Virus record (IMG/VR): IMGVR_UViG_3300020473_000140
Span: 1 to 21,869 of that record
Length of the DNA stretch: 21,869 nt
Reading direction: 5' to 3' (one strand)
DNA from: a virus
Positions 1,533 to 20,103 of this stretch are shown here, piece after piece; within the stretch, counting starts at the first letter, position 1, and the number at the start of each line of letters is the position of its first letter. Under the pieces are notes generated by a model. It was not told the origin of the DNA and ran no database searches. It worked only from the letters and a program-made list of their open reading frames with translations. Both the position numbers and the translations under genes were made by a program.

Positions 1533-1561
1533 ATAATACCAAGAAAAACACTCAATGTCAA
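1533..1561 (-). promoter_or_regulatory. Host sigma70-type promoter
   Basis: Read on the minus strand: TTGACA (1556-1561), a 17-bp spacer, then TATTAT (1533-1538). Transcription would begin near 1526, about 30 bases before the 35-aa ORF, and read through the small-gene run to the holin-like and lipoprotein genes. The -35 is a perfect consensus and the -10 matches five of six. Confidence 0.75.
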
Positions 1562-1568
1562 ATTATTT

Positions 1569-1991
1569 TCAACAATATTGAGCAAATTCACTGATAATCT
1601 TTGACCTTTCAGGATGTCTCATCCTATGCAATGCTCGAGCTTGCATTTGACGAACACGATCTTTACTTATTCCCATTTTTTGTCCCACCTCTTTCAGAGT
1701 ATGAACTTTACCAGACAATCCAAACCTCATGTCAAGAATCATTGATGATCTTTCATCCAAAGTAGAAAGACATTCCCTCAACTTCAACCCCAACATTTCC
1801 AACCGTACAGCGCCCATAACAGTTGATTCGCCATCTACAACATCCATGAAATCACGTTCAAGTTCCTCGTCGCCCATATTCACAAGATTGTCATCCAGTT
1901 CTTCTTCAAGAACTCTGCGAATCTTGATGTATTGGTCATAATCAGTCATTGACATACCTCCCCAATCAACTCCATTCTTTCCAATCGTCAT
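1569..1991 (-). CDS. Stand-alone sigma-70 region 3.2/4 protein
   Basis: 140 aa. Residues about 66-130 match the C-terminus of primary sigma factors: LDMRFGL (86-92), then a helix-turn-helix HTLKEVGQKMGISKDRVRQ (97-115) and ARALHRMRHP (118-127). In RpoD the equivalents are MRFGI, TLEEVG, RERIRQ and KALRKLRHP. Residues 43-60 (ELERDFMDVVDG) resemble the region 3.2 finger. Regions 1, 2 and 3.0/3.1 are absent, so the protein cannot melt a -10 by itself. The -35-contacting positions correspond to K110, D111, R114 and Q115, conservative with RpoD R, E, R, Q. AAGGAG stands 7 bases before the ATG. It has its own TTGACA promoter and is not overlapped by neighbours. It may bind the RNA polymerase beta flap, replacing host region 4 or acting like T4 gp33. 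The domain is certain, the role inferred. Confidence 0.88.
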   Translation of the reverse strand: MTIGKNGVDWGGMSMTDYDQYIKIRRVLEEELDDNLVNMGDEELERDFMDVVDGESTVMGAVRLEMLGLKLRECLSTLDERSSMILDMRFGLSGKVHTLKEVGQKMGISKDRVRQMQARALHRMRHPERSKIISEFAQYC

Positions 1992-2034
1992 ATCAAATCT
2001 CCTTTTCAGAGGTTATCATCATCAATCAGTTTAA

Positions 2035-2063
2035 AGTATATCAAGAATATCCTATGATGTCAA
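2035..2063 (-). promoter_or_regulatory. Host sigma70-type promoter of the sigma-region-4 gene
   Basis: Minus strand: TTGACA (2058-2063), 17-bp spacer, TATACT (2035-2040), with an A-tract directly upstream of the -35 that could act as an UP element. The predicted start near 2028 gives a leader of about 37 bases containing AAGGAG. Confidence 0.78.
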
Positions 2064-2070
2064 GTTTTTT

Positions 2071-2508
2071 TTATTTTGTGAGATATCTCAGAGCTCTCTC
2101 TACCGATTCAATGGTATCTCCAATACCCCCAAGTCCAGTATTGCAGGACTTACACAACCAACCACGAAACTCTTTAGTATCATGGTCATGATCACACTGC
2201 CAACCCCAACGACCATCGACACCTTCAGGAATCTCACTTTTATGACGATAAACAGGTTTGTCACAAAGATCACAATGGTCACCATATTTAGGTTTGGGAT
2301 GATCTTTCAGAAGAGTTTTCTTGATCTCTGAAAGTTCTTTGGATGTAGCACGAGCACAAGGATCACAATAAGTATTGACCCTCAGACGATAACCATCTTT
2401 TGTCAGTCGTGTCTTATAGAATGAAAAATGAATATTGTCTTTAACTGTCTTACAAACGGAACACTCACAAGTGCCCTCTGGGATGTTTGTCAAATCTTTC
2501 GCTTTCAT
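2071..2508 (-). CDS. 49: Recombination endonuclease VII (Holliday-junction resolvase)
   Basis: 145 aa, close to T4 gp49 (157 aa). The endonuclease VII signature is clear: CDLC (79-82), CDHDHD (105-110), RGWLC..CN (115-123) and LGGIGD (126-131). Four cysteines bind structural zinc, and the DHDH and N residues form the metal active site of the ββα-Me fold. It cleaves branched DNA before packaging. The N-terminus has a second pair, C16/C19 and C48/C51, an extra zinc-ribbon-like module. An in-frame ATG at 2572-2574 is rejected: it lies inside the promoter spacer, upstream of the predicted transcript start. The ATG at 2506-2508 has AAGGA a few bases upstream. The gene has its own promoter and is separate from the 46/47 operon. 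Confidence 0.9.
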   Translation of the reverse strand: MKAKDLTNIPEGTCECSVCKTVKDNIHFSFYKTRLTKDGYRLRVNTYCDPCARATSKELSEIKKTLLKDHPKPKYGDHCDLCDKPVYRHKSEIPEGVDGRWGWQCDHDHDTKEFRGWLCKSCNTGLGGIGDTIESVERALRYLTK

Positions 2509-2564
2509 GTTATCCTTTGATTTATGAGTTGTGAAAGATAGTGATAAATTATCATCACATAAAC

Positions 2565-2593
2565 AATATATCAAATTGTTTTGTGATTGTCAA
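2565..2593 (-). promoter_or_regulatory. Host sigma70-type promoter of endonuclease VII
   Basis: Minus strand: TTGACA (2588-2593), 17-bp spacer, TATATT (2565-2570), preceded by an A-tract. The -35 overlaps the stop codon of the preceding 111-aa gene. Transcription from about 2558 leaves a leader of some 50 bases to the ATG at 2508. Confidence 0.78.
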
Positions 2594-2925
2594 GTTTTTT
2601 GCATATTAATCATCATCATGAGTCCACGACCAGCTTCGATTGCAGTATCAACAATCCAATCAAGATTCTCTTCGTCATAGTTCCATTTTCCTTTGACATA
2701 TTCCACAAGTTCATCATATTCCTCATCTGTCAAATCTTCAATCTCTGGAAGAACCTCTTCAATATCATCTACCGCTTCAAAGAGTTTTTTCACAGGATCT
2801 ATGAAATATCTTGCATCACTCCATGACATTTCACCATCTGCTTTTGCTTTACCGACTGCTTCTACAAACGAGAATACGAAATCAATAATATCTCTCGTTT
2901 CTTCAATACCTCTTTTCTCAACCAT
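2590..2925 (-). CDS. Hypothetical acidic helical protein, 111 aa
   Basis: 111 aa, strongly acidic and predicted largely helical; no signal peptide and no catalytic motif. Acidic runs such as EEVLPEIEDLTDEEYDEL (about 57-74) and a hydrophobic patch DIIDFVFSFVEAVG (about 12-25) are the main visible traits. I do not recognise the family. It has AAAGGA about 8 bases before the ATG and overlaps the end of the deformylase gene by 8 bases, so it is probably the last cistron of the gp55-to-here operon. Its stop codon is part of the next promoter's -35. Confidence 0.7.
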   Translation of the reverse strand: MVEKRGIEETRDIIDFVFSFVEAVGKAKADGEMSWSDARYFIDPVKKLFEAVDDIEEVLPEIEDLTDEEYDELVEYVKGKWNYDEENLDWIVDTAIEAGRGLMMMINMQKT

Positions 2926-3445
2926 TTCTTTGTTTCCTTTCGACTTTGCGTTTTAGAATTTTACGTTTCTTCATTGCGGATTTCAGTTTGAAGTCCGATA
3001 CATTATCTATAAAAAGTTCACCTTCCATATGTTCCATTTCATGTTGAAATATTATGGACAACAAACCACCAAAACTTCCAAATTGTTCTGTCCCATCTTT
3101 GAGTTGAAATTTGACTCCAATTGTCTCTGCCCTTAAAACAGGCATGAAAAGATGAGGAAAAGACAAACATCCCTCTTTTTCATAAATTTCTTCGTCACTC
3201 CATTCCACAATTTCTGGATTAAAAACCGCCATTGGGTCACCATCAGAAATCATCGAAAACACTTTTGTTGGAATACCAATCTGATTAGCAGACAACCCGA
3301 TTCCATTATAGTGAAACATATTATCAATCAAACGTTTCTCAAGTTTATCTGGATCTTCGTGTGGACTGTCAAAATCATAACGATGAGGAACCTCTCGTAG
3401 AAAAGGATCTTTCTCATCAATCAAGGGCATAATCAAATCACTCAT
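2918..3445 (-). CDS. def: Peptide deformylase
   Basis: 175 aa, full length for the family. All three deformylase motifs are present: GIGLSANQ (48-55), EGCLS (91-95, with metal-ligand C93) and QHEMEH (134-139, with ligands H135 and H139 and catalytic E136). It removes the N-formyl group from new proteins in the cytoplasm. Marine phages often carry such a gene, proposed to keep maturation of new proteins going during infection. The third motif has E138 where bacterial enzymes usually have D (HExDH). A basic C-terminal tail follows (about 159-173). It overlaps the upstream 78-aa gene and the downstream 111-aa gene by 8 bases each. A GAAAGAG element stands about 7 bases before the ATG. Confidence 0.95.
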   Translation of the reverse strand: MSDLIMPLIDEKDPFLREVPHRYDFDSPHEDPDKLEKRLIDNMFHYNGIGLSANQIGIPTKVFSMISDGDPMAVFNPEIVEWSDEEIYEKEGCLSFPHLFMPVLRAETIGVKFQLKDGTEQFGSFGGLLSIIFQHEMEHMEGELFIDNVSDFKLKSAMKKRKILKRKVERKQRNG

Positions 3446-3674
3446 GGTTTAACTCTTTCTTGAGGGTTTTAACTTCTTGTTCAAGACGATCAACTCGCAT
3501 AGATAACAATTCTACTGGTGAATAATAACGTGGAACTGCTTTGTTTGCTTTTGTTTGCCAGGTTTCTCCACCAGTTACACCAATTCTTTCAACAGTTTCA
3601 CGACCATTCTTTTTATTATGTTCGTCAATGTCATTGATGTATTCACCAGCTGTTGTAAATTTTAAATCATTCAT
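3438..3674 (-). CDS. Hypothetical protein with C-terminal coiled coil, 78 aa
   Basis: 78 aa. The last third (about residues 52-77) has a leucine/valine heptad pattern, ELLSMRVDRLEQEVKTLKK, typical of a short coiled coil. The N-terminus is polar and unrecognised. It shares a 4-base ATGA overlap with the end of gp46 and an 8-base overlap with deformylase, so it is translationally embedded in the recombination operon. It may help oligomerisation or contact a neighbour's product; no function can be assigned. Confidence 0.68.
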   Translation of the reverse strand: MNDLKFTTAGEYINDIDEHNKKNGRETVERIGVTGGETWQTKANKAVPRYYSPVELLSMRVDRLEQEVKTLKKELNHE

Positions 3675-5389
3675 ACTGTCTCTATCTTACTGAAGTTTTT
3701 TTCTTTCACAAACTTGATTGTGCTGAGAAACTTATCATAAAGAATTTCTCCTTTGTGTGAAATCACGAACACATTGGTATTTTCATCCATCGTGTTTATG
3801 ATTTTGAGGAATGCATCAGTTCCATCTGCATCAAGAGAAGAGTCAAACACCTCATCCATAATAAGTAGATTGGTGTTGACACTATTCTTGAGTTTTGCAA
3901 CCTGACGCCATGTGAACAGAAGTGCAAGGTCAATCCTCATCTTCTCACCTTCTGAAAAAGAAGAGTAAGTAAACTCATCACGATATTGAGAACGAATTGT
4001 CTCGTTGAAGTTTTCGTCAATCGAAAAGTTGATGAGGAAGTCAAGCTCATTTAAATACTTGTTGACAAACTTGTTGATTATCGGCACGTACTGTTTGATA
4101 ATCTTTGTCTTGATTCCTGTGTCACGCAAAAGTTCATGTGCATAGTCATAAAGTTGTTTCTGTTCTGTCAACTTAGCATAATCCTGCAAACACTCTTCAA
4201 GATTCTGTTGTAATAATTTTAGTTCATCTTTCTCTGTATTGTCAAGTTTTTTCTTGTCTCTAAGTTTTTGAATCTCTTGCGTAGTTTTCTTTATATTTTC
4301 ATCCAATGAACCAATATAGGATTGAAGCGCTGCAACTTTCTTGTTCTTTTCTACGATTGACTGACCAATCTCTTGAAACTCACGCAAAGTTTGTTCCAAA
4401 GAATCTATTTCTGATTGTATGTCATCAATAGCATCGTCATATTTCTTTGATTGATCCAACAATTGTGTATTTCGTGTCTTCTTGAAAGTTTCATTGATAG
4501 GTTGCTCACATACTGGACAATCATCATTCTTGGTAAAAAACTCTCGTTGTTTATCTACCTCTGATTTCTTTGCACCAATCTTGTTCTGAACTTTGTTGTA
4601 TTCTTTTGTCTTCTTCTTGACTGCATCCTCATTTGTCAGTTTTTCTCCCAGAGTTCCTATTTCTGTTTGAAGTGCAGCTACTGTATCAGTTTCTTCGTTG
4701 ATTGTCTCTCTGTAATTCTCAATGTCCTTTTCTTTTTGTGATATGACTGATTCGTTGTCCACCTTGAGTCGTTCAATATAATCTTCTTGAATCTTTATCT
4801 TCTGGTTATACAATCCTTTCTCTACCTCAAGAGTTCCCAAGTCATCTTTCAACTCCAAGTTCTTTTTCTTGAGAACAGTATTCATCGTTGAGAAAATTTG
4901 TATGTCAAGTAAGTCCTCAACAATAGCTCGTCTGTCTGACTGTTTAAGTTGCATGAATGGTTCAAAACTTGAACTTCCAAGCAGAACAATTTGAGTGAAC
5001 GATTTGTAATTCAGTTTGAGAATAACCTTTTCCAGATACTCTTGATAATCTCTATTGTTTGCCAACTGGTCAATCAACTTACCATTCAGATGAATTTCAA
5101 ATAGATTTGGTTTTGCTCCTCTGCGAACAATATAGTTCTTCTTACCAATCGTAAACTCAATCTCTACCAACAAACTCTTTTCGTTGATGGTGTTCACCAG
5201 TTGTGGTTTGTTAATATTGCGATATGCTTTTCCAAACAACCCAAAAGTCAGGGCATCAAGAATAGTTGACTTTCCAGAACCATTCTCTCCAATGATAAGA
5301 GTTGTTGGTGATCTGTCAAAAAAGACAGTTGTTGGATTATCTCCTGTTGAAAGAAAGTTAGACCAAGAAATTTTTTTAAATGTAATCAT
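3671..5389 (-). CDS. 46: gp46 recombination nuclease ATPase subunit (Rad50/SbcC-like)
   Basis: 572 aa (T4 gp46 is 560). SMC/Rad50 layout: Walker A GENGSGKST (34-42), two long coiled-coil arms (about 165-285 and 300-415), zinc-hook CPVC (291-294) at the apex, ABC signature SFSEGEKMR (477-485), Walker B LLIMDE (508-513) with the D-loop SSLD (517-520), and H545 as switch histidine. With gp47 it resects DNA ends for UvsX-dependent recombination and replication restart, and in T4 it helps degrade host DNA. The ATG overlaps the stop of the 63-aa gene as ATGA. A TTGACA/TAAAAT pair occurs inside the gene (4216-4245), listed under rejected items. Confidence 0.97.
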   Translation of the reverse strand: MITFKKISWSNFLSTGDNPTTVFFDRSPTTLIIGENGSGKSTILDALTFGLFGKAYRNINKPQLVNTINEKSLLVEIEFTIGKKNYIVRRGAKPNLFEIHLNGKLIDQLANNRDYQEYLEKVILKLNYKSFTQIVLLGSSSFEPFMQLKQSDRRAIVEDLLDIQIFSTMNTVLKKKNLELKDDLGTLEVEKGLYNQKIKIQEDYIERLKVDNESVISQKEKDIENYRETINEETDTVAALQTEIGTLGEKLTNEDAVKKKTKEYNKVQNKIGAKKSEVDKQREFFTKNDDCPVCEQPINETFKKTRNTQLLDQSKKYDDAIDDIQSEIDSLEQTLREFQEIGQSIVEKNKKVAALQSYIGSLDENIKKTTQEIQKLRDKKKLDNTEKDELKLLQQNLEECLQDYAKLTEQKQLYDYAHELLRDTGIKTKIIKQYVPIINKFVNKYLNELDFLINFSIDENFNETIRSQYRDEFTYSSFSEGEKMRIDLALLFTWRQVAKLKNSVNTNLLIMDEVFDSSLDADGTDAFLKIINTMDENTNVFVISHKGEILYDKFLSTIKFVKEKNFSKIETV

Positions 5390-5577
5390 TCTGTTTCATT
5401 CAATAATTGTGGTTTAGTTCCATTTTCAAACTGATAGTCAGATTCTTTGATTTTATCTTCTAATACTCTGATGATGAAATCATTAAGTGTTATTTTATGC
5501 TCGTGAGCTGCAAGTGACAATTGCACGATTGTTTTGTCATCTAATGCAAGTTCTACATCTACTGTTTCTTTAGTCAT
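5386..5577 (-). CDS. Hypothetical protein, possible ribbon-helix-helix-like, 63 aa
   Basis: 63 aa. It begins with a strand-like stretch (TVDVELALDD) followed by two probable helices, the second being ITLNDFIIRVLEDKIKE. This is reminiscent of ribbon-helix-helix or CopG-like folds, but the usual basic DNA-contacting strand is absent and the protein is acidic. I do not assign DNA binding. It is linked by 4-base ATGA overlaps to the oxygenase gene before it and gp46 after it, so it is co-translated with the recombination nuclease. Confidence 0.68.
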   Translation of the reverse strand: MTKETVDVELALDDKTIVQLSLAAHEHKITLNDFIIRVLEDKIKESDYQFENGTKPQLLNETE

Positions 5578-6413
5578 GATTTTTCTATCGTTAGGGTTGG
5601 AATCTCACCTTTGTAGGTTGTTTGACCTTCTTTCATTTGTTTAGTTTGGTTTGCTTCCAACAATTGTTTTTGTTGTTCTTGTTGTGCTTTTATTTCATCC
5701 TCAGTTGCAAAAATGGCATTAAAAGACACGCTTCTCCTTTCTCCTTTTCCATCAGCAGTTCTGAACGGATAGACGAAATGTGATTGTTGTGCTGGAAAAA
5801 CAAAGAAATCTCCCACCTGAGGCCTCCATGAAAATTGAGGTGATACTAATTGAGAATCGTTACAAGTACTATTTACAAACACAATATTTCCATCGTCTTC
5901 CCTACCTTTTTTTCTACTTGGAAGATACTCTGGTATTTTAAGATACATTACAGAAGATATTTGACACTCAGTATGAATGTGCATAGGATTATATTCACCA
6001 TCTTTCTGTGATATAACCCACATTGACAACATTTGAGTCAACCATTTTTCTTGTTGTATCGCTTGTTCATTGCCTGGGTGTTGTTGTGATTTTGTTGCAA
6101 CTACAAAATGACGAACTATGTCCATGAAAAAATTATAGATTCCAGCTTCGTGTAACTTTTCGTGTTCTATATACAATTCGTGTTCTATTTGTCCTGCAAG
6201 ATTCTTACCCCAACTTTTTTCGTTTTCTGCGTTGTCTACCATCTCGTCTGTAATCTCAAGCATCTTACCCAAAATAGGATCTGGTAATTTTGTCTTCATA
6301 ACAAAAGTAGACCAAGGTTGAATCATCGACATATTCATTTCAAACTTTTGTTCTGGAACTCTATTTTTCTTTTTTTCTTTTCTTTCTTGCATTCTTCTTT
6401 GTTGTCTATTCAT
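5574..6413 (-). CDS. 2-oxoglutarate/Fe(II)-dependent oxygenase family protein
   Basis: 279 aa. The double-stranded β-helix signature is visible: NPMHIHTECQISSVMYLKIP (142-161, first iron-binding histidine region H145/H147), GDFFVFPAQQSHFVYPF (201-217, distal histidine H212) and RRSVSFN (226-232, with R227 suited to bind 2-oxoglutarate). Such enzymes hydroxylate proteins, nucleic acids or small molecules; the substrate here is unknown. Residues 1-20 are very basic (RQQRRMQERKEKKK), suggesting contact with nucleic acid, and the C-terminus is glutamine-rich. It lies between gp47 and gp46, which are usually close neighbours, with ATGA overlaps on both sides. A role tied to DNA or to the 46/47 complex is inference only. 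Confidence 0.82.
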   Translation of the reverse strand: MNRQQRRMQERKEKKKNRVPEQKFEMNMSMIQPWSTFVMKTKLPDPILGKMLEITDEMVDNAENEKSWGKNLAGQIEHELYIEHEKLHEAGIYNFFMDIVRHFVVATKSQQHPGNEQAIQQEKWLTQMLSMWVISQKDGEYNPMHIHTECQISSVMYLKIPEYLPSRKKGREDDGNIVFVNSTCNDSQLVSPQFSWRPQVGDFFVFPAQQSHFVYPFRTADGKGERRSVSFNAIFATEDEIKAQQEQQKQLLEANQTKQMKEGQTTYKGEIPTLTIEKS

Positions 6414-7468
6414 ACTGTCTCCACTGTCAGTGCCTCATTATAAAGGTCTTGCATCAATTTATTCAGTTCACCTTTACTGGTAATTTGTAAACTATCCACA
6501 CAATTTTTGATTACACTCATTGTATCTTCCACATCTTCGATACTCTCCAAATCTTCGCCCAAATCCTCAATATCAAAAAGATTATCTATGATTGAAATAT
6601 TACCCACTCCAACCTTAATAAGACCATCCATCAAAGCTTCAAACATATACTGATTTGTCTTGTTCTTGATGATAATTTTGACATAACAATCTTTGTATCT
6701 TGACAAGTCCTGTTCTGGTTCTTGTCCCTCAGAATCATCATAATAGATTTTGTGAAACATAGAAAAAGGATTTGGTATAAACTCTGTATCCAATGTTTCA
6801 GTATCAAAGATATGAAATCCTCGTTGATCATTGTAATCTGCCCATGTCATCTCATATGGATTTCCAAGATAGTGAATATTACCTGTGATAGAACGATGAT
6901 GAAAATGACCACTGAACACTTTACGATAAGCTTTGAAAAGGGAAGGAGAAAAACCATCTGTACTCATAGAACCTTTTGTATGTTCTATTCCGTCTAAGTG
7001 TAAATGTCCAAACACAACTGGACATCTTGACTTCTCAAGCATTGACATTGACTTTTCATGATTGTCCTCACATATCCAAGGAAGAATCAACGCTTCAGTA
7101 TTTCCTAACTTCACAACCGACGGCTCTTCATAGTAAGATAGATAATCATACCCATCCATCAACTCACGAACAGCATTCACTTCCAAAGTGTTCTTAAAAT
7201 AAATGTCGTGATTACCAATGATGATTGATGATGGTATCTTCAGTTCATTCAAAGGACCAAGAAATATTTCTCTCATTGTGTTAAGAGTTTTGTAGTTGAT
7301 GAACTTTCGTCTGTCAACTATGTCTCCCAAGTGAATCACTCCATCCACTTTTCGTTCTACGAGAGTTGGAAAGAAAACCTCTTCGTAAAATCTACGAAAG
7401 AAGTTTGCAAAAATCAAACTATCATTTCTCGCTCCAAAGTGAGTATCGGTTATGAGTGCATATTTCAT
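6410..7468 (-). CDS. 47: gp47 recombination nuclease subunit (Mre11/SbcD-like)
   Basis: 352 aa (T4 gp47 is 339). The five metallophosphoesterase motifs are in order: DTHFG (8-12), GDIVDRR (48-54), GNHD (85-88), GHLH (154-157) and GHFHH (187-191). These bind the two catalytic metals. The C-terminal part, with an acidic stretch near 299-315, would form the capping and gp46-binding region. With gp46 it processes double-strand ends for recombination. The ATG overlaps the gp55 stop by 4 bases and its own stop overlaps the oxygenase gene by 4, placing it second in the operon started by gp55. Confidence 0.97.
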   Translation of the reverse strand: MKYALITDTHFGARNDSLIFANFFRRFYEEVFFPTLVERKVDGVIHLGDIVDRRKFINYKTLNTMREIFLGPLNELKIPSSIIIGNHDIYFKNTLEVNAVRELMDGYDYLSYYEEPSVVKLGNTEALILPWICEDNHEKSMSMLEKSRCPVVFGHLHLDGIEHTKGSMSTDGFSPSLFKAYRKVFSGHFHHRSITGNIHYLGNPYEMTWADYNDQRGFHIFDTETLDTEFIPNPFSMFHKIYYDDSEGQEPEQDLSRYKDCYVKIIIKNKTNQYMFEALMDGLIKVGVGNISIIDNLFDIEDLGEDLESIEDVEDTMSVIKNCVDSLQITSKGELNKLMQDLYNEALTVETV

Positions 7469-8061
7469 GCAGGAAGTTCCTCGTTAAGATAGGTTGTCAA
7501 AGGAGACATTTTTACAAGTTTTGTATCTACTGTCTCTTTGGGTTTTTTCTTCTTTCTTTTCTTTTCTTCAAATGCGTAGATAAAATCATATATTGTAGCA
7601 CGTTTGTCTGAAGTGAGGGGTGAGGCTCCAGTTGAGATGAAATCCTCTGACTCCATAGAACTAGTATCAGAGTTTTCTTCTAATGAATCAAACTCGTTCA
7701 TCGTCTTGTATTTAATGTACAACTGCTTTTTTTCTTTTTCAATTCTTCGTAAGAACGCATAGTAAATAATTTGAGTAAAGTAAGCAAATGGGTTTTGTGA
7801 TTTCTCTGGGTTGAAATTATTAGCATACATCACACAATTTTCTATCCCATCACTCACCATTTCTTCACGAAATGCATAGTTAATAAAGTTTGGTCGATGT
7901 GATAGTTTCTCTGCAATTTTTAAAAAACACTCTCCTGCATAATCTGGAATTACTGGTGGCTCTATATCGTTATCTTTAGCAATTAGATATTGTTCACGAT
8001 ATTCGCTCATAACCTCAAGGAGTTTAGAATTATCAACATAATGTTGTTTCTTTCTTGGCAC
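7465..8061 (-). CDS. 55: gp55 late-transcription sigma factor
   Basis: 198 aa (T4 gp55 is 185). Alignable with T4 gp55 across the core: YVDNSKLL near the start, EKLSHRPNFINY (51-62), REEMVSDGIENCV (65-77), NPFAYFTQI (90-98) and FLRRIEKEKKQ (103-113). This is the region-2-like core that recognises TATAAATA. The C-terminus SPLTTYLNEELP is placed like the T4 sliding-clamp-binding tail. The start is GTG at 8059-8061, with AAAGGA 6 bases upstream. A perfect TTGACA-N17-TATAAT promoter gives a 28-base leader. Three exact late promoters occur elsewhere in the window. The residues after 165 are lysine-rich and differ from T4. Confidence 0.93.
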   Translation of the reverse strand: MPRKKQHYVDNSKLLEVMSEYREQYLIAKDNDIEPPVIPDYAGECFLKIAEKLSHRPNFINYAFREEMVSDGIENCVMYANNFNPEKSQNPFAYFTQIIYYAFLRRIEKEKKQLYIKYKTMNEFDSLEENSDTSSMESEDFISTGASPLTSDKRATIYDFIYAFEEKKRKKKKPKETVDTKLVKMSPLTTYLNEELPA

Positions 8062-8095
8062 AGGGTTCCTTTCATAAATTTAATCATATAAGAGT

Positions 8096-8124
8096 ATTAT
8101 ACATGACTACAGACCAAATGTCAA
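8096..8124 (-). promoter_or_regulatory. Perfect-consensus sigma70 promoter of the gp55 operon
   Basis: Minus strand: TTGACA (8119-8124), exactly 17 bases, TATAAT (8096-8101). Both hexamers are identical to the bacterial consensus. The start near 8089 would drive gp55 and the seven overlapping genes after it. Confidence 0.88.
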
Positions 8125-8149
8125 GTATGTTTTTTACACTTGACATTTG
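8115..8149. repeat. Perfect 12-bp inverted repeat joining two -35 elements
   Basis: CAAATGTCAAGT (8115-8126) and ACTTGACATTTG (8138-8149) are exact reverse complements separated by 11 bases. Two further arms nest outside: TGACTACAGACC (8104-8115) against GGACTGTAGTCA (8169-8180), 11 of 12 pairing, and AGTATTAT (8093-8100) against ATAATACT (8203-8210), perfect. The gap of 147 bases between genes is thus nearly all palindromic or promoter sequence. Confidence 0.85.
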
Positions 8150-8167
8150 TGCCACAGACGATATAAT
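8140..8167 (+). promoter_or_regulatory. Divergent perfect-hexamer promoter on the plus strand
   Basis: Plus strand: TTGACA (8140-8145), 16 bases, TATAAT (8162-8167). It points rightward, where no plus-strand gene exists, so a transcript from about 8174 would be antisense to the 109-aa gene and uvsW. Its -35 lies in the right arm of the inverted repeat whose left arm holds the gp55 -35. Confidence 0.6.
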
Positions 8168-8208
8168 AGGACTGTAGTCATTAAGAATAATAGTATATAC
8201 AGATAATA

Positions 8209-8538
8209 CTAGTTCATCATCATGTTCTTGAGCATCTCTTCTGATACGAAATCTTCTTGATGTTCGTTCACTTCTTTTAGAATATCATCATAAATTTCAC
8301 TCATTTTCTTTGAAAGAGAAGCCATGGTGACTATGTATTTGGCGGATACTGGTACGGAGTGGTCTTCTGTAAATGGAATCCACTTGGTGAATCGCACACC
8401 ATCTTCGCCATCTTCGTCTAAGATGTGGGATATTTTGATTGGATGTTTGAAATGGAAAAGTCCTCCCTCTGGTTTCTCCAAAATTGTGAGAAGTTCATCT
8501 CCTGTGGAAAGTTTGACGTATTTAATGCTTGGGTCCAT
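8209..8538 (-). CDS. Conserved hypothetical protein, 109 aa
   Basis: The ATG at 8536-8538 is preceded by AAAGGA at good spacing. An ATG two codons earlier (8544) has the same AAAGG directly against it and overlaps the uvsW stop, so the later start is preferred. The N-terminal half, IKYVKLSTGDELLTILEKPE, then a strand-rich section, looks like a small β-barrel of Sm-like type. The second half is helical and ends in methionines (EEMLKNMMMN). Similar proteins occur beside uvsW in marine T4-like phages as far as I recall, without known function. It is the last gene before the palindromic promoter region. Confidence 0.72.
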   Translation of the reverse strand: MDPSIKYVKLSTGDELLTILEKPEGGLFHFKHPIKISHILDEDGEDGVRFTKWIPFTEDHSVPVSAKYIVTMASLSKKMSEIYDDILKEVNEHQEDFVSEEMLKNMMMN

Positions 8539-8540
8539 AT

Positions 8541-10001
8541 TCATCCTTTGATTGGTATGGTGTATATATGATACGGAAATTGTTCTGAACTGTAAATTTT
8601 GACTCTTTCCATAAAATGATTGAGTGTATAGTTTTTCCTCTCTTTAAATGTTAGGTCATCTGCGATGTCGTAAAGTGAAGCTGATGACTTTGTGTCTGAC
8701 TTTCGCAAACCTCTTCCTATTGATTGTAAATTTCTGATACGTGATTTAGAAGGAGAAGCAAAGATAATGTTATGCAAATTCCTAATATTGATGCCGGTAG
8801 AGTATACCCCATAAGAAGCACAAATGACTGCATCTTTTTCAGTTTCAATAATAGACCTGACCTGTTCTCTTGACTCTGCATCTGTACCTCCATATACAAA
8901 GAATACTCTTCTTGAGTTGTCCAGTTTATCTTGCAACATATCATACAAAATGTTGCCATGTTTTTCTACTAATTGAAATAATACGAGTGAATTACCTCTC
9001 AATCCGTCTACGAGATTACATATATACTTATTTCTTTCAGGATGACTTACCAAAAAGTCAATCTCTTCTTGATACTTTAATTTAGACACAATCATGGCCG
9101 ACTCTCTGGGATACTTCAGAACCAAACACCGAATACTTATTTCTGAAAGTGTCTTCTTCTTGATGAGTTCTTTTGTTGTCGTGACCTTTTTTACTGGTCC
9201 GAAAAGTCCTGTGAGAATCAACCTGTGTACCTCTACTTCATCCAATGTTCCAGTTGTTCCAATACGATAAGGAGCATTCACTAGGTTTTTCATTATTTTT
9301 GTAAGTGACTTTGCTTTATACAAATGTGCTTCGTCACCAATCACTACCTCAAAATCATTGAAGAAAGGTTTCTTGAGTTCGTACAATGATTGCCAAGTTG
9401 AGATGATTACTTCCTTGTTCGACTCCTTATCCTGTCCACCATAGATTTGATGAACATGATTTTTTACTTCAAAATCTTTGTCTGCATAAGCATCAAAGTC
9501 AGAATACATTTGATTTACAAGTGACAGAGTTGGAACGATTATCAACGTTCTTCTGGGAAAGTAGTATCGCATCAAATAATAGATGATGAGTGATTTTCCA
9601 GAAGCTGTTGGTGAAAGTAAAAGACATCTCTCTTGGTCTATTGCATATCGTACTGCATTGCTCTGATAGTCCCTGAGTTTGTATTCACAAGGAAACGATG
9701 TGAGAAACTGAAAATAATCTTCGTTTGTGATGTTTGAATTTTCAAATACAGTATTGTCTTTTACTCTGTACTCTCTGTCATTTGCAAATCTATAAACCTC
9801 ATGTTTTAGACCCGAATAAATCTTTCCATTATCATAATTGAAAAGATAAACATACCCATCCCATTTCTTCGCACGAAACATGGGCATGAATTGATAGTTA
9901 TTTGGACGAAAACGAAAATAATGATTCAGTTCCATCTTCAGAGATGGTTCACATGAGATTTGAATATAGACATTATCAACTGAATTTATTTCCAATTCCA
10001 T
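8541..10001 (-). CDS. uvsW: UvsW recombination/repair helicase (superfamily 2)
   Basis: 486 aa (T4 UvsW is 503). The N-terminal double-stranded-DNA-binding domain contains FRAKKWDGYVYLF (42-54), matching the T4 FRYGNWDGRIRLL pattern. Helicase motifs: PTASGKS (131-137, Walker A), IIVPT (154-158), GDEAH (222-226), TGTLD (250-254, motif III), VICASYGVYSTGINIRNLH (392-410, motif V) and QSIGRGLRK (426-434, motif VI). UvsW unwinds branched DNA and R-loops, helping to switch from origin-dependent to recombination-dependent replication. It begins one base after the uvsY stop, so the pair is coupled. Confidence 0.96.
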   Translation of the reverse strand: MELEINSVDNVYIQISCEPSLKMELNHYFRFRPNNYQFMPMFRAKKWDGYVYLFNYDNGKIYSGLKHEVYRFANDREYRVKDNTVFENSNITNEDYFQFLTSFPCEYKLRDYQSNAVRYAIDQERCLLLSPTASGKSLIIYYLMRYYFPRRTLIIVPTLSLVNQMYSDFDAYADKDFEVKNHVHQIYGGQDKESNKEVIISTWQSLYELKKPFFNDFEVVIGDEAHLYKAKSLTKIMKNLVNAPYRIGTTGTLDEVEVHRLILTGLFGPVKKVTTTKELIKKKTLSEISIRCLVLKYPRESAMIVSKLKYQEEIDFLVSHPERNKYICNLVDGLRGNSLVLFQLVEKHGNILYDMLQDKLDNSRRVFFVYGGTDAESREQVRSIIETEKDAVICASYGVYSTGINIRNLHNIIFASPSKSRIRNLQSIGRGLRKSDTKSSASLYDIADDLTFKERKNYTLNHFMERVKIYSSEQFPYHIYTIPIKG

Positions 10002-15088: not shown

Positions 15089-15096
15089 TATTTATA
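15089..15096 (-). promoter_or_regulatory. Late promoter TATAAATA before gp22
   Basis: Exact T4-type late promoter box on the minus strand, 42 bases before the gp22 ATG, in the 53-base gap after the gp21 stop. No TTGACA stands upstream at sigma70 spacing. Expected to serve gp22 and gp23. Confidence 0.85.
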
Positions 15097-16516: not shown

Positions 16517-16791
16517 GCCTGTACCTCCGTTGTTTCCTCTTCTGGTTCTATGATGGGTTCTGTCACAACTTCTTCAGGTTCTGCTTGAATTTCTTCTTCT
16601 GGTTCTACTTCAACCTTGTCTGCAAACATATTGTTTGAAACTTCTTGTTTTTTGGTTGCTAACATATCTACAACCTTAGAAGAAATAAGTTGATTGAAAG
16701 CATCGTTTACTTTCAAAGGGTTGTTCTGCATTGAAAAATCTACTATGTCCACTGTCTTAAACTCTTGCTGTTTTTGTGGTTGTTCTGACAT
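16513..16791 (-). CDS. 67: Prohead core protein, gp67-like
   Basis: 92 aa (T4 gp67 is 80). The middle contains LISSKVVDMLATKKQEVSNN (about 35-54), which resembles the T4 stretch RTIDLIKEEKIAIARN in spacing and helix character. The last third is a run of glutamate and proline (EPEEEIQAEPEE and similar), the acidic tail expected of this core protein. Location between gp20 and gp21 matches T4. GGAGG stands 4 bases before the ATG, and an exact late promoter lies 26 bases upstream. Confidence 0.75.
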   Translation of the reverse strand: MSEQPQKQQEFKTVDIVDFSMQNNPLKVNDAFNQLISSKVVDMLATKKQEVSNNMFADKVEVEPEEEIQAEPEEVVTEPIIEPEEETTEVQA

Positions 16792-16816: not shown

Positions 16817-16824
16817 TATTTATA
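16817..16824 (-). promoter_or_regulatory. Late promoter TATAAATA before the gp67-like gene
   Basis: Exact late box on the minus strand in the 36-base gap behind gp20, 26 bases before the ATG of the gp67-like gene. It would serve 67, the 92-aa gene, 68 and 21. Confidence 0.85.
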
Positions 16825-19529: not shown

Positions 19530-20066
19530 CTATGCAAAAGTGTAGTAATTATAAGACCAAGTTACATCGAACTGTTCTATGTCACTTGCGGTATCATAAC
19601 TTAATGCAATTTCACCTATCGTATTTGGCCAACAGTCAACAAATTCAACTGTATGAATGGGTGTAGTGCTTCCACTCTTTCCGTATTGTTTTAACTTGAC
19701 TGTTCCAGCAAAACCATTTGAAGTAACATGACCAGCATTCATATCATTACCAATCGTTCCATTTATTTCATTCATCCATATCTCAAGTTCAGAACGTTCA
19801 TCTCCACCTTCTGTCATGATAATTGTAGTTGTCAAATCACCAAAAACCATGTCGCCTGGAATCTTAACAGTTCTACCAAAATATTGTCGTTCAATTGGTG
19901 TGACTGTTAAAGGTGGTAGTGCTGACACATTACAAAAATATTTAACATTTGCAAGAGAGGGATCACTTACACCAGCAGGAGTTCCAGTAATCTCAAGTTC
20001 AAATAAACTTGGACGGGCGCCCCCCGAAGCGAGCGCACCTTGAAATGTCGATAAGCTAAACGCCAT
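19530..20066 (-). CDS. 19: Tail tube protein gp19, paralog C
   Basis: 178 aa. MAFSLSTFQGALASGGARPSLFELEI opens it (residues 1-26 in outline), followed by FCNVSALPPLTV, IPGDMVFGDLTTTIIMTEGGDERSELEIWM in place of the GDRTFD block, and IGEIALSYDTASDIEQFDVTWSYNYYTF at the end. It is the most divergent of the three copies and the one next to the sheath gene. GGAG stands 8 bases before the ATG, and an exact late promoter lies 30 bases upstream. Confidence 0.88.
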   Translation of the reverse strand: MAFSLSTFQGALASGGARPSLFELEITGTPAGVSDPSLANVKYFCNVSALPPLTVTPIERQYFGRTVKIPGDMVFGDLTTTIIMTEGGDERSELEIWMNEINGTIGNDMNAGHVTSNGFAGTVKLKQYGKSGSTTPIHTVEFVDCWPNTIGEIALSYDTASDIEQFDVTWSYNYYTFA

Positions 20067-20095: not shown

Positions 20096-20103
20096 TATTT
20101 ATA
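20096..20103 (-). promoter_or_regulatory. Late promoter TATAAATA before tail tube paralog C
   Basis: Exact late box on the minus strand, directly behind the sheath stop codon and 30 bases before the ATG of paralog C. It would transcribe the three tube genes and possibly the portal. Confidence 0.85.

Follow-up and report, generated by a model that had tools for sequence, protein, structure and literature searches.

A stand-alone sigma-70 region 4 encoded in an exchangeable, presumably early cassette of a marine T4-like phage

By sequence comparison and structure prediction, a 140-aa protein encoded by a T4-like phage is a sigma-70 region 4 of the RpoD type with no other recognizable part of a sigma factor, and its gene, when its surroundings are aligned with those of relatives, belongs to an exchangeable cassette of presumably early genes in this marine phage. 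The gene occupies positions 1569-1991 (minus strand) of the window, by which we mean the whole stretch of DNA analyzed, spanning all 21,869 bases of a viral record. The major capsid protein of this T4-like phage is closest to those of the pelagimyophages Mosig and HTVC008M (56%).

The 140-aa protein matched the Pfam family Sigma70_r4 (PF04545) at 2.1e-15 over residues 74-126, scoring 56.4 bits against a gathering cut-off of 24.1 and covering model positions 1-50 of 50, and its best PDB matches were the C-termini of SigA and RpoD proteins (5e-16). No match to region 2 (Sigma70_r2) or region 3 was found in the Pfam search at E <= 1. An earlier note on this DNA had described a protein with a region 4 helix-turn-helix (HTH) and no region 2, which is borne out here, and the reading frame is intact. 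Region 4 spans residues ~61-139, with the HTH recognition helix at 109-117, and the protein is 33-40% identical to the aligned RpoD/SigA sequences. The AlphaFold model consists of a confident five-helix region 4 (pLDDT 82-97 in the blocks covering residues 61-130 and 79 for 131-140), which superimposed on residues 525-613 of E. coli sigma70 in the holoenzyme (6psq_L) with Z 13.9 and 1.8 A over 88 residues, and on the sigma-A region 4 of a fusion with the beta-flap tip (7kug) with 1.0 A over 73 columns. In the alignment, K110, D111, R114 and Q115 are the equivalents of E. coli R584, E585, R588 and Q589, confirming the conservative substitutions previously proposed at the -35 contact positions, and the hydrophobic face of the C-terminal helix is retained, with I132, I133 and F136 in place of V606, L607 and F610.

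Residues 1-58 form a phage-specific N-terminal segment of low model confidence. The earlier note had also credited the protein with a region 3.2 finger, a claim for which no clear support emerged: residues 1-60 scored 22.8 against RpoD finger segments, compared to 22.4 +/- 3.6 for shuffled sequences (p = 0.38), and the fold alignment begins at sigma70 residue 525, past the finger, which we take to lie at about residues 513-519. In the alignment, four residues (D41, L44, D47 and F48) are still identical to the finger motif, and a faint trace of the finger is possible. The segment shares an 18-residue motif with the region-4-only protein L195 (score 48 versus 24 +/- 4.5, reached in 0/1000 shuffles) and a weaker motif with L160 of contig G001 (p = 0.006), suggesting that the gene has been inherited among phages as a free-standing unit. 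When the common N-terminal motif was searched for as a DNA pattern, the only matches were L195 and a chance hit in an Hsp20-like gene.

Alignment with relatives (blastn) delimits an insert of ~1 kb at positions 1573-2586, which holds the region-4 gene and, as its second gene, an endonuclease-VII-like gene at 2071-2508 (minus strand; PF02945, 1.8e-12; phrog_2633, 3e-18), whose ATG start lies at 2508 and whose open reading frame reaches a TTG at 2574. The insert is flanked by two conserved minus-strand genes: a gene of family phrog_1987 with no assigned function at 807-1379 and, on the other side, a gene for a 111-aa protein at 2590-2925. In a close relative, L005 (gp55 92% identical), the insert is absent and the flanks are contiguous, and in L003 (gp55 98% identical) the same site holds ~2.7 kb of different cargo; the loci retrieved through gp55 or through the gene for the 111-aa protein contained no region-4 protein. 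The insert boundaries coincide with repeated early TTGACA promoters that follow the pattern AAACTTGACAT-N-TATTATATAA, present in the window, L003 and L005, and a promoter repeat of ~70 bp (1503-1572) occurs twice in L003. Promoter cassettes termed PeSLs are said, in work cited in PMC4503421, to mediate gene shuffling in T4-type phages, and the window insert would likewise reflect exchange at repeated early promoter sequences. The cargo of L003 (15574-18390) includes an N6/N4 DNA methyltransferase (PF01555, 1.7e-30), an adjoining 176-aa reading frame that could be a partner nuclease and an additional 322-aa reading frame, the latter two with no Pfam match. Adjoining the insert in the window is a phage-encoded peptide deformylase (2918-3445; PF01327, 5e-32).

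Promoters were located by consensus scan, and their activity and timing are read from sequence alone. The region-4 gene is preceded by a Shine-Dalgarno-like AAGGAGA (1998-2004, minus strand) and a putative sigma-70-type promoter, TTGACA-17-TATACT (2035-2063, minus strand). Putative promoters of the same type precede the endonuclease-VII-like gene (TTGACA-17-TATATT; 2565-2593, minus strand), overlapping the insert boundary, and the phrog_1987 gene (TTGACA-17-TATTAT; 1533-1561, minus strand), within the ~70-bp repeat; another, with the perfect consensus TTGACA-17-TATAAT (8096-8124, minus strand), is assigned to gp55. The window's three T4-type late promoters, TATAAATA, all on the minus strand and devoid of a -35 box, precede structural genes; they lie at 15089-15096 (41 nt from the gp22 start), 16817-16824 (25 nt from the gene start at 16791) and 20096-20103 (29 nt from the gene start at 20066). 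The TTGACA class is therefore the only class seen here with a box for the HTH. The gap at 8062-8208, between gp55 and an Sm-like reading frame, contains two perfect (12/12) sigma-70-type promoters on opposite strands: the minus-strand one directed at gp55 (8124) and a plus-strand TTGACA-16-TATAAT (8140) that points into a region whose assigned genes are all on the minus strand, where it could possibly drive antisense or small-RNA transcription. The Sm-like frame itself (8209-8544), which adjoins gp55, scored 27.8 bits with PF16243, just under the Pfam cut-off of 29.4.

Used as the sole query against the viral collection, the window protein returned no relative. Alignment-based and relative-based ranked searches of viral contigs identified region-4-only proteins in five or more further groups of marine T4-like contigs. 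In G001 (21.5 kb) and G003 (69.6 kb), the region-4 gene lies downstream of gp55-gp47-gp46 on the same strand. L178-L183, which are related to G003, also encode region-4-only proteins, and L191-L194, L195 and L198-L200 represent further groups, with L194 and L198-L200 sharing genes with G003 and the neighbors of L191, L192 and L195 resembling T4-type baseplate and head genes on a reading of their sequences. Purifying selection acts on the G003-type proteins (dN/dS 0.14-0.40); values above 0.7 for the pairs L191/L192 and L193/L194, which probably reflect divergent N-termini in the alignment, were not used. Over region 4, the G003-type protein is mostly 70-80% identical to alphaproteobacterial RpoD, as judged from its best 80 bacterial matches, which are alphaproteobacterial as far as their titles tell, and this points to capture from a host. 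The T4-like region-4-only proteins are scattered in a region 4 tree, which requires six label changes, at least two of them forced by supported branches, making more than one capture likely; the tree does not fix the position of the window protein, which is the most diverged. No region-4-only protein was found in HTVC008M, Mosig, Melnitz-3, P-SSM7, S-SSM7, AG-345-F15, ACG-2014f or DSL-LC03, and the annotated matches inspected in a phage collection were full-length sigmas only.

The recognition helix varies among these relatives, with the equivalents of R584G and Q589S in G003 and of R588T in L179. Reading of the -35 box may therefore not be a function common to the group, and in relatives with an altered helix the flap may matter more than DNA. 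A pairing of the altered helix in G003 with a TTGACT rather than a TTGACA box was considered and set aside as uninformative, since TTGACT is also the box of HTVC008M, a phage without a region-4-only protein.

Several further loci were recorded in the course of these searches. In G001 (2216-6192), the region-4 gene is followed by what appear from their sequences to be a large VWA/peptidase-like reading frame and a MoxR/CobS-like ATPase, and L324 has similarly placed 771-aa and 402-aa reading frames upstream of its clamp and clamp-loader genes. In another kind of viral region-4 protein (L137, L138, L134 and L149), ~200-220 aa long, region 4 forms the C-terminal part; the N-termini of L137 and L138 weakly match Cro/C1-type HTH domains, which would suit a promoter-reading repressor. 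T4 itself (NC_000866, 168763-168873; L413) matched Sigma70_r4 only weakly, at 20.9 bits and thus below the cut-off of 24.1, in a 312-aa frame near the genome end that is possibly rIIB.

We also determined whether gp33 occurs alongside these proteins, using its family phrog_254, which recovered T4 gp33 as a positive control at 1.6e-33. This family had no match in the 21.9-kb window and none to the 140-aa protein at E <= 1. A gp33 homologue and a region-4-only protein are present together in G003, G038 and G040 (phrog_254, 2e-24 to 2e-20), and gp33 was found, besides T4, in 7 of the 8 T4-like genome records named above. Region 4 in G003, G038 and G040 is thus an addition and not a replacement, which contradicts, for these relatives, the earlier suggestion that the protein stands in for gp33. 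For the window phage, the record of 21.9 kb is too short to tell: gp33 lies ~54 kb from gp55 in G003, and its absence from the window is therefore uninformative.

In T4, the host polymerase is captured through AsiA, which remodels sigma region 4, or through gp33, which takes up the docking site of region 4. We tentatively favor, with a confidence just short of even, the reading that the region-4-only protein is an early accessory mimic acting in trans, which competes at the beta flap, at the TTGACA box, or at both; this comes closest to the earlier note's suggestions that the protein swaps out host region 4 or acts at TTGACA promoters. Host holoenzyme would transcribe the gene soon after infection from its TTGACA/TATACT promoter; the product would occupy, or compete for, the beta-flap tip via its C-terminal helix, its recognition helix could touch TTGACA -35 boxes, and host sigma transcription at -35-dependent promoters, be they host or phage early ones, might be weakened or retuned. 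The protein would supplement the gp55/gp33 late system without taking its place. It is the combination of both region 4 faces being kept, a host-type promoter, an exchangeable location and the co-occurrence of region-4-only relatives with gp33 that leads to the reading as an early accessory factor, and the alignment argues for it in that both the -35 contact residues and the flap-docking hydrophobic C-terminal helix are retained. Against it, a region 4 on its own may have little affinity for the flap, and the recognition helix is not constant among relatives (G003, L179).

The alternative that holds up best, which we nonetheless regard as unlikely, is a free DNA-binding regulator that uses the HTH only, leaves the polymerase untouched and acts on TTGACA early promoters, its own among them, by repressing or tuning them. 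The conservatively retained recognition helix of the window protein and the TTGACA boxes that precede gp55, the region-4 gene and its neighbors are in keeping with such a regulator, but the region 4 fold is kept whole, including the flap-docking C-terminal helix, where a minimal HTH needs less, and the recognition-helix residues vary in relatives.

The earlier note had proposed a split sigma system, with the region-4 gene lying beside that of gp55. The window does encode this late sigma factor (7465-8061, minus strand; phrog_234, 3.1e-57), which is sigma region-2-like, as claimed, but it is 5.5 kb away with eight genes between. In a split sigma, gp55 would supply region 2 and the 140-aa protein region 4, and the pair would read promoters that combine a -35 box with a gp55-type -10 element, in the manner of RsoA and SigO. 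Two-subunit sigmas with a separate region 2 (RsoA) and region 4 (SigO) are known (PMC10028694), a fusion of T4 gp55 and gp33, which gives gp55 a flap-binding domain, is functional (PMC2988020), and gp55 and a region-4-only protein occur on one contig in the window, G001 and G003; phrog_234 had no match in 28 further contigs, but as these are mostly short fragments, this does not argue that gp55 is absent there. The promoters do not bear the proposal out. Counting boxes within two mismatches as TTGACA-like, and bearing in mind the small numbers, 3 of the 13 late promoters on region-4-bearing contigs (0.23) had such a box, compared to 0.24 expected from shuffles, and the fraction was 0.14 at the 22 late promoters on contigs where no region-4 protein was seen; there is thus no -35 enrichment before TATAAATA, and the window's own late promoters contributed 0/3. 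In addition, the near relatives L003 and L005 (gp55 98% and 92% identical) have no region-4 gene at the insert site, so that gp55 there is probably independent of a region-4 protein, and gp33, present in region-4-bearing relatives, would compete for the same flap site. A split sigma is accordingly a rather doubtful prospect, and it is improbable that some marine T4-like phages assemble a third holoenzyme from gp55 and a host-RpoD-derived region 4 with promoters distinct from the early and late ones. As a separate observation, the gp55 C-termini in the window, G001 and G003 end, on our reading, in a hydrophobic/acidic stretch (e.g., LTTYLNEEL, MLDFL, LELFYED) that resembles the sliding-clamp-binding tail of T4 gp55, and these tails suggest that clamp-activated late transcription may be kept.

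It is likewise improbable that the protein serves as a decoy, titrating a factor that targets region 4, such as a host anti-sigma or Rsd-like protein, an AsiA-like protein of a rival phage or a host defense factor. AsiA is known to target region 4 (PMC2988021), the gene occupies an exchangeable cargo site at which L003 carries, among other cargo, a DNA methyltransferase, and some relatives tolerate changes in the recognition helix, whereas the DNA-contact residues are conserved in the window copy, which would be needless for a decoy.

That the gene is a non-functional fragment of a captured host rpoD seems very unlikely. Phages do pick up host DNA, and the window protein is a single copy with no close homologue, but its reading frame is intact with a putative promoter and ribosome site of its own, the N-terminal motif held in common with L195 marks it as an established phage gene, and the G003-type relatives evolve under purifying selection. 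Lowest of all we rate a flap-binding late co-activator that replaces gp33 in a gp33-less lineage, for which sigma region 4 and gp33 do share one flap site (PMC2988020) and no gp33 was seen in the 21.9-kb window, but against which stand the three relatives that encode both proteins and the presence of gp33 in T4 and most other T4-like genome records.

Compared with sigma-70 (RpoD/SigA), the window protein keeps the region 4 fold, conservative versions of the -35 contact residues and the flap-docking helix, but it is the product of a separate phage gene without regions 1, 2 and 3 and with an unrecognizable finger. T4 gp33 is also a small phage protein, which works with gp55 at the region 4 site of the flap, presumably the site of the window protein as well; gp33 differs in lacking sequence similarity to sigma and in not reading DNA (PMC2988020). 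In B. subtilis SigO-RsoA, regions 4 and 2 likewise come from two proteins (PMC10028694), whereas a gp55 partnership of the window protein is only hypothetical and a -35 box is missing from the late promoters. The same region-4-only size and fold is found in two proteins of uncultured Caudovirales annotated as 'Sigma70_r4 domain containing protein' (A0A6J5S254, 136 aa; A0A6J5LJJ3, 95 aa), which the window model matched in BFVD at E 1e-4 and 1.3e-3, respectively; these are known by annotation alone, with no function, from phages that may or may not be T4-like. The T4-like cyanophage ACG-2014f has, in addition to gp33, an extra RpoD-like sigma (AAJ63_gp193, 230 aa) that, unlike the window protein, appears from its sequence to contain a region-2-like stretch besides region 4. 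Region-4-only annotations in uncultured phages are therefore already known, as are T4-like phages that encode an entire additional sigma. A literature search that covered few subscription papers and preprints turned up no account of region-4-only genes in T4-like phages; the earlier note, too, knew of no description of the arrangement in this group.

Together, these data indicate that some T4-like phages carry a bacterial RpoD region 4 as a separate gene, which selection has maintained in one lineage or more. Such region-4-only genes constitute a natural test of what region 4 does without the rest of sigma. In marine T4-like phages, middle promoters have not been identified (PMC9004378), and region-4-only genes may help explain how these phages switch away from host promoters.
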